A stretch of 35,280 bases of DNA from Lachnospiraceae bacterium (lineage in GTDB: Bacteria; Bacillota; Clostridia; Lachnospirales; Lachnospiraceae): the NCBI GenBank assembly GCA_016290905.1, contig JAEEVO010000022.1, forward strand, positions 1 through 35,280, in the 5' to 3' direction. Shown in pieces: positions 5,074-35,280 of the stretch (positions are counted from its first letter, which is position 1; each line of letters begins with the position of its first letter). The translations under genes and the position numbers were made by a program. The notes under the pieces are model-generated. The model was not told the DNA's origin, did not search any database, and saw only the letters and a program-made list of their open reading frames with translations.

Positions 5074-6942
5074 TTAAAGCCCCAGTTCCTTAATAAATCT
5101 TGAACGTAACTGTTTTTTACCTCTCCTGTCAGACGAAAATGTAAGAAAAAGCCTGTTTTTGGCACGAGTTACGGCAACATAGAACATCCTCCGTTCCTCC
5201 TCTATCTCTTCTTTGCTTACCGCCTGCCTGTGAGGTGAGCCGCCTTCACACAGATCCATGACGAAAACGGTATCAAATTCAAGACCCTTGGCGCTATGAT
5301 ATGTTAGCAGGCTCACTCCCGCTTCCTTCTCCTTTTCCTGTCTTTCAAAACGTCTTGCCTTCAAAGCCTCCGTATAATCTGCTATGTGCTTTTTCCAATC
5401 GGCATATGTAGCGAACTCTGCGGAAGACGCCTCTATCTCGTCAAGTATCTCAAAAAGGCCTTCCCGATCAAGATTTCTTTCATTTGCGTACTTATCCAGG
5501 AAATCATCGTATCCCACAGCCCTTCGTATATATTTCACCGCCGCCTTCGGATCAAGCTTCTTTATAATGTACAGGTCGTATTTCAGTTTTTCAATTCTGT
5601 CCCTTACATACTGCCTGTCCTTATAAGACGCCATGAGAATATCAAAATCCAGCTCACGTTTTCTCATCACATCCCTTGTGATATACCTCGACGGCCGGTT
5701 CGCTATCTGAAGAAAGAGTTCTCTCCATCTCACCCTGTCCTCCTGTGGCCTTTCGATAAGCGCCATTTCGATATATGCAAAAATATTTAATGCTATCCAG
5801 TGTTCATAAATATTCGGCACATTGTCCCTGAGACAGAACCTGATGTTTTTTTCCTTAAGTCTTGAGATCAGTGCGCCGGGCTGTGTATTCACCCTGTACA
5901 GAACGGCAATCTCGGATTGGTCAATCCCCTTTTTCAGCAGCTCCTCTATCATGACCGCGATATACTCCGATTCATTCTTTATCTCCCCGAATTCCCTGAA
6001 GAGCACGGTTGATGTCCTCGGTACCGAAGTTCTGCCCGATCTGATGTTTTTCCTGTATCTTTTTTTGTTATGCGAGATGAGTTTTATCGAATGTTCCGAT
6101 ATCTCGGGAGAGCACCTGTAATTGACGCCCAGAATTATCTTCTCATATCCGGGACATTTTCCAAAATCCTTTTCAAACTCAAAAAGCATACCCGGATCCG
6201 CACCTCTGAAGGAATAGATGCTCTGATCGTCGTCTCCGACAACAAAGATGTTGTTATGGAGAGCGCACAGTCTTTTTGTCAGCCTGTACTGAAGCGGACA
6301 TATATCCTGGAACTCGTCTATAAGCACATATTCATAAATGCCCCGCCAAAATTCCAACACCTCGGGTTTTTCATCAAAAAGTCTCGAACACAGAAGCAGC
6401 ATGTCATCAAAATCAATTTTCATCTCACTTCTGAGCATTCGTTCAAATTCTTCATATATGATCCGGAAAGTTTTACGATCAGTGACGGAGGAATTAAATC
6501 CGTCAGGGTCTGCCCCGCTGTTTTTCAGGCAGCTTATTTCATTAGACAACGTAAAAATAAGATTGTTATCGCCATAAGACTCAATGCCGGCTTTTTCCGC
6601 CGCCAGCTTAATGAACCTGTTTCTTTCGTCCTCGGCCAATATCGCGGACATATCGTAATGGTATGCCCACCTTAAGATTTTATAAAACAAAGCATGAAAG
6701 GTACCGAAGGATACTCCCTGTTCTCCGCCCGCAAGGATCCTGTAACGTTCCTGCATCTCCCGGGCGGCGGTCCTTGTAAAAGTAATGACAAGTATCTTTT
6801 CGGGAGAAACACCGCATTCTCCCGTAAGAAATCTGATACGGTTGACTATGACCGTGGTTTTACCCGAACCGGGCCCTGCAAGTACCATGCAAGGCCCGTC
6901 GGTATGCGTAACCGCTAAATTCTGTTCTTCATTAAATCTCAT
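5074..6942 (-). CDS. UvrD/PcrA-type superfamily 1A DNA helicase, short form
   Basis: An ATP-dependent 3'-5' DNA helicase of the UvrD/Rep/PcrA family, likely acting in DNA repair or removal of replication blocks. All family motifs can be read: Q motif Gln7, Walker A AGPGSGKT (22-29), ITFTRTAA, motif II DEFQD, motif III GDDDQSIYSFRGAD, motif IV NYRCSPEI, motif V TYHSAKGLEFDTVFV, and motif VI FYVAVTRAKNRLFL near the C-terminus. At 622 residues it is about 100 shorter than PcrA or UvrD because it stops soon after motif VI and lacks their C-terminal tail. It is therefore probably a paralogue rather than the main PcrA. The ATG is five bases after the gltX stop with almost no ribosome binding site, suggesting translational coupling to gltX. 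Confidence 0.92.
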   Translation of the reverse strand: MRFNEEQNLAVTHTDGPCMVLAGPGSGKTTVIVNRIRFLTGECGVSPEKILVITFTRTAAREMQERYRILAGGEQGVSFGTFHALFYKILRWAYHYDMSAILAEDERNRFIKLAAEKAGIESYGDNNLIFTLSNEISCLKNSGADPDGFNSSVTDRKTFRIIYEEFERMLRSEMKIDFDDMLLLCSRLFDEKPEVLEFWRGIYEYVLIDEFQDICPLQYRLTKRLCALHNNIFVVGDDDQSIYSFRGADPGMLFEFEKDFGKCPGYEKIILGVNYRCSPEISEHSIKLISHNKKRYRKNIRSGRTSVPRTSTVLFREFGEIKNESEYIAVMIEELLKKGIDQSEIAVLYRVNTQPGALISRLKEKNIRFCLRDNVPNIYEHWIALNIFAYIEMALIERPQEDRVRWRELFLQIANRPSRYITRDVMRKRELDFDILMASYKDRQYVRDRIEKLKYDLYIIKKLDPKAAVKYIRRAVGYDDFLDKYANERNLDREGLFEILDEIEASSAEFATYADWKKHIADYTEALKARRFERQEKEKEAGVSLLTYHSAKGLEFDTVFVMDLCEGGSPHRQAVSKEEIEEERRMFYVAVTRAKNRLFLTFSSDRRGKKQLRSRFIKELGL

Positions 6943-30396: not shown

Positions 30397-33300
30397 TCAA
30401 CTCTTCAGTTCTATTATATCAACAGATACCTTTGGAATAGATATCTTTGCACCCAATACAGATGTGTATGTATAAATCCCACGAGCTTTTCCATATACTG
30501 TTACATAATCATCCTCTAAAATTCTATATGATGTTAAAGAAGTGGAATATTCACACCAAATCACCTGACTGCTATTATTATTTACTGCCAAACGTATAGC
30601 ATTGGTTTTTGAACCTTCTATTACCTGATATACCTTTCCTGTAAATGTCACATACTTCCCTTTATAGTCATCAGGAGTCCTTGCTATCTGTGTATATGTT
30701 ATCCCGGTGTTATATAGCGCATCCTTTTTATCCTTTAGAACTCCGTTCTTATCAGCAATATAAGTTACTCCGGAAGACTTATCTTTTACTTCTTTATTCT
30801 GAGCAACTACTCCATCCGAATCCGAATAGTAAAGTTTCCCATCTAGAGTAGTAAATGCTTTCTGTACCAAAGAATTATCAGAGGCAAAAATGTATAATTT
30901 CCCATCTATCTTCTGCAATCCTGCTTTAATCGGGTGGCCTTTTTTATAATAATACTTTTTCCCTTTTTCTGTAACCCATCCGGTCACATCCTTTATGGTT
31001 TTTGCTTCAACCTTTTTTGAAAGTTTCTGTTCAACCAGAATTCCCTGCACTTTAATATTTGCCGCAACCTTGAATAAGTATTTTGTATCAGGTTGTAACT
31101 TCTTAGCTACATAAGTATTTTTGCTCGTCTTGCCTAAAAGTTTATATTCATTAGATGCTTCATCAAATATGTACACCGAGAAACTTTTAGCACCCTCATA
31201 TTCATCCCAGTACAATTCAACTTTATTGACATCACTTACACATTTGATGTTCTTAGGTTCTGCCATTATTTTGACTTCAATCTCTATTTTGACCGGCATA
31301 TTCATAAATTTATGTTTTTTGCCGTTTTTATCTTTAACCGTTATTTTTTCAAGTACACCATTTATACTTGTATGTCCGGCATTAAGACCATATATATACC
31401 CTTTTTTGTGTATTGCTATAGTATCATCATCAGAAGAAAAATCATTTTTCGGATCAGATGAATCTTTATCAACCACGTTCTTTATGTCCATAGATTCCAG
31501 ATAATACCGTTCTCCGGAAGTCAGCTTTTTCTTTAGTGATAATACCAAACTCAGTTTTCCTTTTTTATCAGCCAAGAACCTCAGACCTGTTTGAGGATCC
31601 AATATTTCTTGATTTTTTAAAACTTTTCCTTCGCTATCAACATAAAAATAATTACCATCAAGACTTAAGTATGAAGATGTTTGCAGCGCTCCCTCTTCAT
31701 CAAATATATATGTTTCTCCGTCAATTTCTTTTTTGATATCGGATACCTTAAAGCCATTTTCATAGTAATATTTCTTATCATCAATGACCTTCCATCCTTT
31801 TACAGCTTTTTTAGCTGTCTTACATTTTATCTTTTCCGAAAGTTCTTTTTCGATTATACTCTTACTATCACTCTTGTAATTTCCGGCGACTTTAAAATTA
31901 TATGTTGCTTGCGGTTCTAAGCCTTCTACAATAAACCACGTGGTTTTCGTATCTCCGATGATTTTATAATTTTTTGAATCTTGATCATATAAGTATACCG
32001 TATAACTAACCGGTTCGATTTCCCAGCCGGCATAATCAACCCACTGGCACTTTTCCCACTTAAGCTTTATAGCCTTGTCGGATGACTCATACTCGAATTC
32101 AGTTGGAGCCTCTCTCTTTATAACAGTGACTTTATAAGTTAATATTTCATCTGCGATTTTCACAGTAATATCTGCTGAACCTACTCCTACCGCAGAAACA
32201 CAGCCGGCTCTATCAACTTTTGCGACAGTTTCATCACTCGATGAGAATAATGGCTTATAATCAGATCCTTTAACAACTATCGAATCTTCATCATCAATAT
32301 ACAGACTTATACTATCTTTCTTCAAACTGCTTTTATCTACTGTAACAACACATTCCAAATCTTGTGTTCCGGTATTCGCGTGAATCTTTGTAGTTCCCGG
32401 TTTTAACGCAGTAACAACTCCGTTGTTAACAGTTGCTACAGTATCATCCTCTGAAGACCAAATGACCTTAGTTTCCGTGCCGGATACAGTTATCTTTTTA
32501 CTATCCCCGGAAAACAAACTAATATTGTTTATTGACAGAACTCTTTCTTTTACAGTTACATTAAAACTCAATTCTAATCCATTTATTGTTCCGATAATCT
32601 TTGTAACGCCGGCTTTTTTAGCAATGACATACCCATTATCAACAACTGCTATATCTTCATTCTCCGACTTCCAGATAACAGTCCCCCGTACTCCATCAAC
32701 AGAAATCTTACTTCTGTCATTATCGTATAAGGACATATCCGCCTGCATGTCAAAATCTTCCACATATATTTTCTGTGTAAAGATGGTCTGCCCTTCAATA
32801 CTTAAACTCAGCGTTGCTTCGCCCCCGCTTTTTGCTTGAACATAACCTTGTGAATCTACAGAAATTACTTTCTCATTGTCTGAGCTCCATGTAATACTTT
32901 CATAAAAATCTTCACATTCAAAAAATGCTTGAACTTTATCGCCCACGCCTAACCAATTATCCTCAACTCCCATCTTGCCAATGTCATAATAGTATTCTAC
33001 CAACTTAACAAAATCCCCATGAACACCATCTGGATTATAATTGTTGTTATCATCATAGCCACCTTTATTATGCAAATCTGAATGCTCTCTATATAATGAT
33101 ACCATATATTCCGATTTAACATCTATACCGCTAATATTCTTTTGGAATTTTGGAAGAAAAATACATATTTTTCGGTTTTCGTTCCAATCAAAATGTTCAG
33201 ACTCGTAAATGATATCTCCATACCTCTCTTCACCCATAAAATGCCAACGCATAATAACCTTAAAAAAAACAGTATTTTCACATCTACATTCTTTCTCCTT

Positions 33301-33519
33301 TTCAGAGCCATAATAATCAATAAATAACAATCTGTCATTTGTGCTATTTATAATAATCCGAGCAGTTTCATCTACATATTGATATAAAAAACCTTCCTTA
33401 GTATTCTTCTTTTTAATTACATGCTGTTCTGCACTTACTGTTCTATTATTAATGAGCATCAAAAACATAATAACAGCTCCAAATATGATAAAAAATTTTG
33501 ATTCATTTCTCCATTTCAT
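30397..33519 (-). CDS. secreted multi-domain surface protein (Big2, fibronectin-III, cell-wall-binding-like repeats, OB-like C-terminus)
   Basis: A 1040-residue protein with a signal peptide (hydrophobic 9-24, cleavage near VSA/EQ at 30). After an N-terminal unknown region (about 31-190) come about four Big2/Ig-like domains (about 190-455) with the repeated form 'V.W.S.D..VA.V..G.V.A...G.T.I'. Next are a fibronectin-III-like domain (about 460-560), a cell-wall-binding-like block (GWKVIDDKKYYYENG ... YIFDEEG), another Big2-like stretch, a second fibronectin-III domain (about 755-850) and a second wall-binding-like block (GWVTEKGKKYYYKKG ... YIF). The last about 100 residues resemble an OB-type domain (YKGKYVTFTGKVYQV ... 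YTYTSVLGAKISIPKV). No sortase motif is seen. AAGGTGG lies upstream of the ATG. It stands alone; an adhesion or wall-associated role is inferred. Confidence 0.85.
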   Translation of the reverse strand: MKWRNESKFFIIFGAVIMFLMLINNRTVSAEQHVIKKKNTKEGFLYQYVDETARIIINSTNDRLLFIDYYGSEKEKECRCENTVFFKVIMRWHFMGEERYGDIIYESEHFDWNENRKICIFLPKFQKNISGIDVKSEYMVSLYREHSDLHNKGGYDDNNNYNPDGVHGDFVKLVEYYYDIGKMGVEDNWLGVGDKVQAFFECEDFYESITWSSDNEKVISVDSQGYVQAKSGGEATLSLSIEGQTIFTQKIYVEDFDMQADMSLYDNDRSKISVDGVRGTVIWKSENEDIAVVDNGYVIAKKAGVTKIIGTINGLELSFNVTVKERVLSINNISLFSGDSKKITVSGTETKVIWSSEDDTVATVNNGVVTALKPGTTKIHANTGTQDLECVVTVDKSSLKKDSISLYIDDEDSIVVKGSDYKPLFSSSDETVAKVDRAGCVSAVGVGSADITVKIADEILTYKVTVIKREAPTEFEYESSDKAIKLKWEKCQWVDYAGWEIEPVSYTVYLYDQDSKNYKIIGDTKTTWFIVEGLEPQATYNFKVAGNYKSDSKSIIEKELSEKIKCKTAKKAVKGWKVIDDKKYYYENGFKVSDIKKEIDGETYIFDEEGALQTSSYLSLDGNYFYVDSEGKVLKNQEILDPQTGLRFLADKKGKLSLVLSLKKKLTSGERYYLESMDIKNVVDKDSSDPKNDFSSDDDTIAIHKKGYIYGLNAGHTSINGVLEKITVKDKNGKKHKFMNMPVKIEIEVKIMAEPKNIKCVSDVNKVELYWDEYEGAKSFSVYIFDEASNEYKLLGKTSKNTYVAKKLQPDTKYLFKVAANIKVQGILVEQKLSKKVEAKTIKDVTGWVTEKGKKYYYKKGHPIKAGLQKIDGKLYIFASDNSLVQKAFTTLDGKLYYSDSDGVVAQNKEVKDKSSGVTYIADKNGVLKDKKDALYNTGITYTQIARTPDDYKGKYVTFTGKVYQVIEGSKTNAIRLAVNNNSSQVIWCEYSTSLTSYRILEDDYVTVYGKARGIYTYTSVLGAKISIPKVSVDIIELKS

Positions 33520-33768
33520 AGTTTTACCACCTTTCTTGACATTTATTTCTCCAAATCGTTTGTGCTTTATGCGGTTTACTTTTTCAATCGAAAAATCTCT
33601 TTAGTTCTATCGATTTCTTTTACTCCCCAAGTTATTTATGCCATAACTATCTAATAATTACAAATTGTATGTCTATATAGGTATGTTTAACTTTTATAAG
33701 TTATTTTATCATACTCTTCCATATATTACAATAAGATTCATTAAAAAAATCATAAAGGCAGGTTCCCT
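33520..33768. other. divergent intergenic region with a small palindrome
   Basis: About 250 A/T-rich bases between the secreted-protein gene and the XRE gene. It contains a perfect palindrome TAACTT-ttat-AAGTTA (33688-33703), a plausible operator for the adjacent XRE regulator. A TATATT at about 33722 might be a -10 for the + strand but has no good -35; no convincing promoter was found for the minus strand. Confidence 0.5.
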
Positions 33769-34089
33769 ATGCTTCAAAATATAGATTATGCCATTCTCGG
33801 TAAAAGAATAAAAGAAACTCGCCAAGCTTCCGGTATTACACAGGAAGCTTTAGCAGAAATGGTAAGTTGCAACACTTCACATATTTCTAACATTGAGAAT
33901 AATTATACAAAAGCAAGCCTTAACGTTCTATTATCTATTGCCAATGCTCTTAATACTTCTATTGATTACTTGCTATCGAACCAATACAACAATGAGTCTC
34001 TAGCCTTAAATAATGAAATCCTCCGACTTTTTTCTATGTTGCCAGAAGAAAAGAAACAACAACTCATCCGTATAATAAAAGCCCTTTGA
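33769..34089 (+). CDS. XRE-family transcriptional regulator
   Basis: A 106-residue protein with an N-terminal lambda-Cro/XRE helix-turn-helix (LGKRIKETRQASGITQEALAEMVSCNTSHISNIEN, about 10-44, then LLSIANALNTSIDYLL) and a short helical tail (EILRLFSMLPEEKKQQLIRII) that probably mediates dimerisation. This is the usual small XRE layout of Clostridia. A weak AAAGGCAGG site precedes the ATG. A palindrome at 33688-33703 may be its operator. It lies next to a structured element and a toxin-antitoxin pair. Confidence 0.9.
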   Translation: MLQNIDYAILGKRIKETRQASGITQEALAEMVSCNTSHISNIENNYTKASLNVLLSIANALNTSIDYLLSNQYNNESLALNNEILRLFSMLPEEKKQQLIRIIKAL

Positions 34090-34364
34090 TAACAATTATC
34101 CCAAAAAACTCTCTACCTCCTTTGCTTAATCACATCCTTTGATTTTAGTGTACCACATCATATAGAGTACATTTAAAAACAGATTCCATTAAATGATACT
34201 GCTAATATTATAAAAATGATATATATCGCCTGCTACTCGATTGTAGTACTTTTTATTGAACTTGTGGTGTGCCGGCAGCACAAATTTCATGCTCTTACAA
34301 ATCCCTTTTACATATTTTATAAAAGTTTTTTCAAAAAAGGTTTAGTTATGAGATTAAGAAAGGG
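34090..34364. other. intergenic region without a supported gene
   Basis: About 275 A/T-rich bases. A 72-codon open frame from 34216 runs into the repeat element and has no ribosome binding site, so it is not accepted. No terminator or promoter is clear. Confidence 0.55.
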
Positions 34365-34601
34365 GTACAGGGAGGGGCATGACTATCATCTCCCTCCGCA
34401 TACTCCGCTCCGCGCGACGTTTTTGCATGAATAAGAGGACTGGAATCTGCGTTAGCAGTTTCAGTCCTCTTGCAAAAATGTCGATAAGGATTTTGCGTAT
34501 ATCACAAAGCCCGGCATGTAAAAACAACGCAATATATTTACAGGAGCTTCGCAAAATCCGCCTTCGTATGCGGGGGAGAGATTGTCATGCCCCTCCCGTA
34601 C
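34365..34601 (+). repeat. 237-base multi-branched inverted-repeat element (structured RNA or MITE-like)
   Basis: Terminal arms GTACAGGGAGGGGCATGAC (34365-34383) and GTCATGCCCCTCCCGTAC (34584-34601) pair almost perfectly with one bulge. A second outer stem is TCTCCCTCCGCATA (34389-34402) with TATGCGGGGGAGA (34567-34579). Inside are two independent arms. Arm A: GACGTTTTTGC (34416-34426) with GCAAAAATGTC (34472-34482), continued by AAGAGGACTG/CAGTCCTCTT (34433-34442, 34462-34471) and CTGC-gtta-GCAG. Arm B: GGATTTTGCG (34488-34497) with CGCAAAATCC (34550-34559), with inner TGTAAA/TTTACA. Two positions are G-U only if read as plus-strand RNA. No open reading frame, transposase or reverse transcriptase is in it or beside it. 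Confidence 0.85.
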
Positions 34602-34736
34602 AGGAAACCCCACAATCGTTCATTTCCCAATAATCTCCCAGAACCCCGGAAAAGACTTATCGGTACACTCCGCGGAAAGGTGAGACAGTCCCTTTGTGCA
34701 GGTTGTTTAGCCAGGTCTTTTTTGGCAGAAAACACA
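34602..34736. other. short intergenic stretch, nothing clear
   Basis: About 135 bases between the structured element and the toxin stop. No hairpin with a T tract and no small gene can be supported here. Confidence 0.5.
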
Positions 34737-35063
34737 TCAAGTGTCATCTGTAAGCCTGTGCATGTACTCATTGCACAGTTCTATTATATCCGCAGGAGCC
34801 TTCTCCACAAACCTTGCGCCTCTTGCAACAAGATCCAGCGTCCTCACCTGAAAACACAGAACTACTCCCTGTGTCTCTGTTCTGTTATCCAGTTCGACTT
34901 CCAGAGGATACGTTTTTGGTTTGCTTGTGATTGGAAGTACGACATTGATGTCTCCAGGAAGGGGGACTGAGTTCATAACGATAACAGGCCTGAAATTACC
35001 CTGTTCATGTCCTGTTGTCGGGTTAAGGTTAACCTTTACGATATCGCCTTTATGGAAACTCAT
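34737..35063 (-). CDS. MazF/PemK-type mRNA-interferase toxin
   Basis: A 108-residue protein with the MazF/PemK layout: GDIVKVNLNPTTGHEQGNFRPVI at the N-terminus, LPITSKPKTYPLEVEL in the middle and GVVLCFQVRTLDLVARG near the end. MazF-type toxins cut mRNA at short sequences and are held inactive by their antitoxin. GGAGGTGAG precedes the ATG, and the start overlaps the antitoxin stop (ATGA), the classic coupled arrangement. Length matches the family. Confidence 0.93.
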   Translation of the reverse strand: MSFHKGDIVKVNLNPTTGHEQGNFRPVIVMNSVPLPGDINVVLPITSKPKTYPLEVELDNRTETQGVVLCFQVRTLDLVARGARFVEKAPADIIELCNEYMHRLTDDT

Positions 35064-35280
35064 AAAATCTCACCTCCAACATCCTGACCCCACTCGATTT
35101 CTCCTGTGTCCCCTATATCCTTCAATGTGATTTCCGAGAACGGCTTACCATAAAATTCTTCAAACATCTGTGCTGTGGTCTTTTCTTTTTTTATAAACAT
35201 CCCTCCGTTCTTCAACTCATAAGACACCTTGTCTCCAGCTTTGAACCCCAGTGTCTCTGATATAACCTGAGGGATCCTTA
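35060..35280 (-). CDS. MazE/AbrB-type antitoxin, 3' part only (runs off the window)
   Basis: The last 72 codons of an open frame read RIPQVISETLGFKAGDKVSY near the window edge, then FIKKEKTTAQMFEEFYGKP. The first part matches the AbrB/MazE swapped-hairpin DNA-binding domain (PQVISETLGFKAGDKV); the tail is the toxin-binding part. The TGA overlaps the toxin ATG by four bases, and the toxin's GGAGGTGAG ribosome site is encoded by its final residues GGEIL. The start and promoter are outside the window. Confidence 0.85.
   Translation of the reverse strand, partial: RIPQVISETLGFKAGDKVSYELKNGGMFIKKEKTTAQMFEEFYGKPFSEITLKDIGDTGEIEWGQDVGGEIL

Follow-up and report, generated by a model that had tools for sequence, protein, structure and literature searches.

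A clade-restricted family of four-armed interspersed repeats in rumen Lachnospiraceae, apparently a small mobile element for which the folded single strand is important

Bacterial genomes commonly contain small folded repeats, for which it is often hard to say whether selection maintains the fold or the palindrome simply carries it along. The window analysed here, a stretch of 35,280 nucleotides from a Lachnospiraceae genome, contains at positions 34365-34601 an element of nested stems, which a first-pass annotation considered to be either a structured non-coding RNA or a MITE-like mobile element. The locus therefore raises the question of which of these it is, and of whether the fold itself is maintained.

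The fold is pronounced on both strands. The region 34345-34621 folds at -130.7 kcal/mol on the plus strand (z -12.8; mean of the shuffled sequences -72.2, with 0 of 200 shuffles as low) and at -128.1 kcal/mol on the minus strand (z -10.4). The element proper, 34365-34601, is predicted to form a single closed structure with four arms (-126.2 kcal/mol on the plus strand), which bears out the nested stems of the first-pass annotation, and the two G-U pairs expected of a plus-strand RNA occur at the places that it had named, 34419-34479 and 34443-34461. A covariance model of the family, introduced below, matches the window copy at 34368-34599 with 184.6 bits. The element and its parts are as follows.

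34365-34601, plus strand: whole element, from the fold, with the subfamily ends CAGGG...CCCGT
34365-34403, plus strand: 5' arm of P1, the outer stem, pairing with 34566-34601 in 35 pairs, from fold and alignment
34566-34601, plus strand: 3' arm of P1, from fold and alignment
34406-34414, plus strand: P2, a small CGC-loop-GCG hairpin in which 34406-34408 pair with 34412-34414 (3 pairs), absent from some copies
34415-34483, plus strand: P3 hairpin, with a lower stem of 34415-34427 paired with 34471-34483 (13 pairs)
34488-34559, plus strand: P4 hairpin, with a stem of 34488-34497 paired with 34550-34559 (10 pairs)

The arms of P3 and P4 are conserved in sequence among copies, whereas P1 is conserved in shape, its sequence varying widely with the pairing preserved. 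Briefly, the lower stem of P3 (TTTTTGC / GCAAAAA) is conserved and adjoins a variable mismatch or bulge, and the upper stem, 34434-34450 with 34455-34470 (16 pairs), covaries among copies. The arms of P4, GGATTTTGCG / CGCAAAATCC, are likewise conserved and enclose a loop of about 50 bases that varies among copies and within which the window copy forms two additional 6-pair helices; P4 is shortened or absent in some copies. Open reading frames of 66 to 127 amino acids overlap the window element.

Both kinds of homologue search that the first-pass annotation had proposed, by nucleotide sequence and by covariance model, found many copies with covarying stems in the same genus. At the DNA level, three further copies were obtained from the same genome (76-96% identical to the window copy), and a search of 61 genomes, this one and 60 relatives, gave matches in 9, all of the same genus. 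A covariance model was then derived from 19 well-aligned copies (50 pairs by RNAalifold, 31 of them changed on both sides) and, at 47 bits or more, matches at least 71 places among the 24 genomes of the genus; 10 of these genomes are carriers, with at least 3-15 places each (at least 8 in G000, 3 in G012, 10 in G007, 5 in G003, 9 in G001, 6 in G019, 3 in G009, 9 in G006, 15 in G022, and 3 in G016). The genus-wide matches comprised 81 rows, of which 71 were kept, 6 were opposite-strand echoes, and 4 were weak (31-40 bits) and left out; in 65 extracted stretches, 88 model matches included 17 weaker ones on the opposite strand of a place already counted, which again leaves 71 places. Furthermore, all 35 occurrences of the inner motif of P3 and P4 in the genus genomes fall inside a model match, and its reversed control has 0 occurrences.

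Beyond the genus, one genome from each of 297 other genera contained no model match under stricter filters; this wide sample comprised 299 genomes of 298 genera, including two of the same genus, and the window's own genome alone matched. An exact form of the motif was found in a named collection in 8 stretches of 3 Lachnospiraceae assemblies, two of whose three titles name rumen or omasum, and was not found in viral contigs; the window copy had no match among 50,697 phage and 72,556 plasmid records. All 10 carriers fall in one clade of a helicase tree (support 99/98) with no non-carrier inside. The tree covers 21 of the 24 genomes, three non-carriers (G005, G008, and G020) having no helicase match at threshold, and genomes are counted as non-carriers from assemblies of 64-99% completeness. 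In Rfam 15, the best match for 33000-35280 was BTnc231 at 21.7 bits (cut-off 80.4, E 0.15), with none above the gathering cut-off, and no earlier description of the family was recognised from titles and the beginnings of abstracts in the open-licence PMC literature. On the best reading, the family is new and restricted to one clade, being seen here in one group of rumen bacteria only.

Some copies are only 134-143 bases long and retain P1 and P3 but little or nothing of the P4 hairpin; P4 therefore seems optional.

Short copies: L105:8567-8708, L064:5033-5175, L065:5040-5179, L068:5063-5200, L076:5066-5206, L123:5072-5205

Comparison among copies indicates that the fold has been maintained. 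In an alignment of 67 copies, 95.4% of cells are paired, as against 72.6% after shuffling and 33-57% in slid controls; changes on both sides occur at 40 of the 50 pairs, and the covariation score is 0.58 (shuffled, 0.16; slid controls, 0.04-0.11). This alignment was fitted to the covariance model and hence leans toward structure, but the slid controls are far lower; L086 and L120 are omitted from it, and a copy split by an IS110 gene, together with L077, fell under the threshold. Many copies occupy matching sites in different species, and 18 syntenic pairings are supported by flank matches, with some copies used twice. Across these pairings, the pair survived 90 double changes and was lost in 18; with one arm slid by 1-3 bases, the corresponding figures were 15-27 and 32-42. 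Single changes point the other way, breaking the pair in 83 cases and keeping it in 54. Base changes at the syntenic sites affected 365 of 2455 paired and 345 of 1077 unpaired positions.

The mismatches tolerated within P1 are, in addition, unequal between the strands. In a strand-neutral alignment of 69 copies, isolated P1 mismatches comprise 103 G.T and 17 A.C; with one copy taken from each of 38 groups, defined by flank matches and close similarity, the counts are 53 and 8, the excess of G.T being present in 26 groups, reversed in 2, and tied in 10 (sign test, 3e-6). These stem counts leave out L120 and L086, and the number of copies is 69 with the IS110-split copy and 68 without it. A replication-linked mutational cause was rejected because the excess is present in both orientations relative to local GC skew (46:3 and 57:14). 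The single plus strand, as RNA or as single-stranded DNA, therefore appears to be what selection sees, and compensatory change at shared sites together with the one-strand G.U bias argue that the folded structure of one strand is under selection.

Many intergenic copies, one common fold, and restriction to a lineage are the marks of an interspersed structured repeat, and the preferred reading, to which we give a probability of roughly 55%, is a clade-specific family of such repeats, of the BOX/ERIC/bcr kind, that spreads non-autonomously via a folded plus strand, whether RNA or single-stranded DNA. Full copies would fold on the plus strand into a variable P1, a small P2, and the sequence-conserved P3 and P4; the folded strand would be recognised through P3 and P4 by a trans-acting enzyme, with P1 probably required as a shape and not as a sequence; and some sites would have retained their copies long enough for upkeep of the fold in several species. 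A more specific version, which we consider unlikely, is a minimal mobile RNA of about 230 bases, without a protein or conserved ends, whose folded plus-strand RNA would itself be the unit that an enzyme acting in trans, possibly a reverse transcriptase of the carriers, recognises and returns to the genome as a copy, leaving the outer arms free to change while they pair.

Retained syntenic copies could instead reflect a settled cis-acting role, and the family might be a functional non-coding RNA, either a cis-acting UTR element or a trans-acting sRNA, that has been duplicated, its cellular job being primary and its mobility secondary. The strong covariation and the plus-strand G.U bias also suit such an RNA, as do its presence in all 10 members of the clade, its retention at shared sites in each of the clade's two halves ({L099,L107,L069,L088} and {L093,L106,L117,L085}), and two copies (L084 and L111) that end directly before an apparent ribosome-binding site and start codon. 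We nevertheless regard this reading as doubtful, if still tenable, in view of the genomic context. The copies lie between genes, often near stop codons, at sites that differ among species and in inconsistent positions and orientations: among 61 copies with two scored neighbours, both genes run opposite to the plus strand in 30 and along it in 14, diverge in 9, and converge in 8, with orientation and intergenic position alike taken from crude ORF calls (neighbours of 80 amino acids or more). Relative to local gene direction, 45 copies run against and 26 along, a weak figure in which orthologous copies are counted separately. The 13 neighbour translations, which by eye we take to be mostly core genes (rplA, nrdD, recG, infC, ispF, pta, metA, rseP, and others), share no functional theme, and no Rfam family lies above its cut-off. 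Moreover, no promoter signal into the element was detected by a crude sigma-70 score (8.96, as against 8.93 for shuffled flanks, in 67 copies with enough flank), and because the two neighbouring genes also run more often both opposite to the plus strand than both along it, plus-strand transcription of the copies is not evident.

A classical MITE, derived by internal deletion from a DDE or IS110 insertion sequence and mobilised by the corresponding transposase via its terminal inverted repeats, would account for the small size, the many intergenic copies, and the long terminal inverted repeats, which are present as P1 (35 pairs in the window copy). Dispersal, which counts for the preferred reading, is apparent in that 4 of the 8 copies in the window's own genome, at different places, are 71-97% alike, and four G001 copies at different places are 86-91% alike; at several shared sites, the copies there are most alike one another. 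However, end sequences differ among copies and it is the inner arms that are conserved, and no target duplication was found: with boundaries varied by 6 in 68 copies, the mean longest match is 3.24 as against 3.33 in shuffled sequences, and flanking matches of 5 bases or more occur in 10 copies as against 10.4; with fixed boundaries the score is 0.72 versus 0.51. In favour of spread under the preferred reading, the L081/L108 copy (G006/G003) is absent between the same genes in the carriers G007, G009, G016, and G012, two of which contain other repeats there, and two G022 copies (L094:9818 and L096:5028) are absent at matching places in G007; however, other repeats and sequence divergence obscure all three of these comparisons, none of which yielded a clean empty site. 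One copy, L060:3846-5635, is split by an intact IS110-family transposase gene between the P4 arms, which would favour an IS110 partner, but near relatives of this gene elsewhere in G007 and G019 lie in stretches without a model match, so it is taken as an ordinary insertion into the P4 loop of a single copy and rejected as an autonomous partner. A classical MITE is accordingly judged distinctly unlikely. Least probable of all is a palindrome kept by hairpin correction at the DNA level (template switching), with folding unselected: this process would leave long, near-perfect stems of copy-specific sequence, yet it yields Watson-Crick arms and gives no reason for an excess of G.T over A.C on one strand in both orientations, and it leaves the sequence conservation of P3 and P4 unexplained.

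The two alternatives of the first-pass annotation thus each stand in part. The dispersed copies agree with its MITE-like option, and covariation, syntenic retention, and plus-strand G.U bias agree with its RNA option, extended to single-stranded DNA; a MITE as it was described is not established, because neither target duplication nor a transposase with matching ends, which it had named as decisive, was found among the enzyme families considered. Neither 'single-copy RNA' nor 'ordinary MITE' is an adequate description of the element. Returning to non-autonomous spread via a folded plus strand, two further enzymes were considered. Y1 transposases (PF01797) were detected in 7 of the 10 carriers, the exceptions being G000, G001, and G003, and in 5 of the 14 non-carriers, in incomplete assemblies; a Y1/RAYT partner is unsupported, as these genes fail to track the element. 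Reverse transcriptases (PF00078) track it loosely, with matches in 9 of the 10 carriers as against 5 of the 14 non-carriers; since the carriers form one clade, which confounds the association, and the window's own assembly (81% complete) contains none, they are a candidate mobilising enzyme as a lead and no more.

Several known families are comparable by description. The bcr repeats (bcr1-bcr18) of the Bacillus cereus group are described as interspersed, intergenic, and group-restricted, some being MITE-like and some having conserved RNA secondary structure (PMC3446304, PMC6542083), with mobility tied to a TTTAT motif (PMC6542083). The present element is similarly interspersed, intergenic, group-restricted, and structured; going by those descriptions, it differs in its taxon, in that no target duplication was found, and in its four-armed plan with a variable outer stem and conserved inner arms. 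BOX and RUP of Streptococcus pneumoniae are presented as small, tightly folded interspersed repeats, thought to be non-autonomous, with some BOX copies expressed (PMC3049150); the likeness to these small folded repeats is again one of description, and taxon and architecture differ. ERIC, YPAL, NEMIS, and other stem-loop families are outlined as dispersed repeats sharing a predicted structure (PMC2267715), from which, as so described, the present element differs in being multi-branched and in showing compensatory change across species at shared sites. In distribution and folding, the family thus fits among known interspersed structured repeats (BOX, ERIC, bcr); going by these descriptions, its four-armed plan and plus-strand bias set it apart. 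It also resembles the REP/REPIN and RAYT system as a folded intergenic repeat, 10 of 71 copies being flanked by a GAACCGTC-type inverted repeat, but here Y1 transposases do not track the element. By the usual definition of a REP, the element itself is not a pair of REPs.

A dispersed, protein-free element with evidence for selection on the fold of one strand makes the nature of the substrate, RNA, single-stranded DNA, or double-stranded DNA, a testable question, and the covariance model can be used for annotating these rumen Lachnospiraceae genomes.

The immediate surroundings of the window copy comprise three features.

33769-34089, plus strand: HTH_3 regulator (Pfam), the upstream neighbour, pointing toward the element and outside it
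34620-34670, minus strand: aroA remnant, the last 16 codons and stop (ECTDKSFPGFWEIIGK*), read by eye and from a DNA match
34737-35063, minus strand: PemK/MazF-like toxin (Pfam), the downstream neighbour, convergent and outside the element

The MazEF-type pair reported beside the element is half substantiated: MazF is recognised by Pfam, and its candidate partner, of 72 amino acids at 35060-35278 and extending past the contig end, has no Pfam match. As other copies adjoin unrelated genes, this adjacency looks coincidental. Window positions 34354-34673 match C184:29-348 of the same genome (G000) at the DNA level; the C184 copy (L060 = G000:C184, 1-1614) adjoins an intact aroA and the window copy the aroA tail only. 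The window copy and the tail may have been copied together, yet in this alignment the spacer that separates them is more diverged than the element or the tail. An island may have integrated here, with the tail as its attachment site, or the tail may be left from an old duplication.

Other short repeats accompany some copies. In 10 of the 71 copies, units of a different short palindromic repeat (GACGGTTC ... GAACCGTC) stand inverted on either side, so that the element sits like cargo in the middle of a REPIN.

Copies flanked on both sides by the GAACCGTC-type inverted repeat: L079, L082, L083, L101, L103, L104, L105, L110, L116, L065

Furthermore, a very frequent short repeat (CTTCGCTTCGCTCAGAAT) adjoins the L081 copy near 5277-5304 and is present in numerous contigs across the genus genomes.
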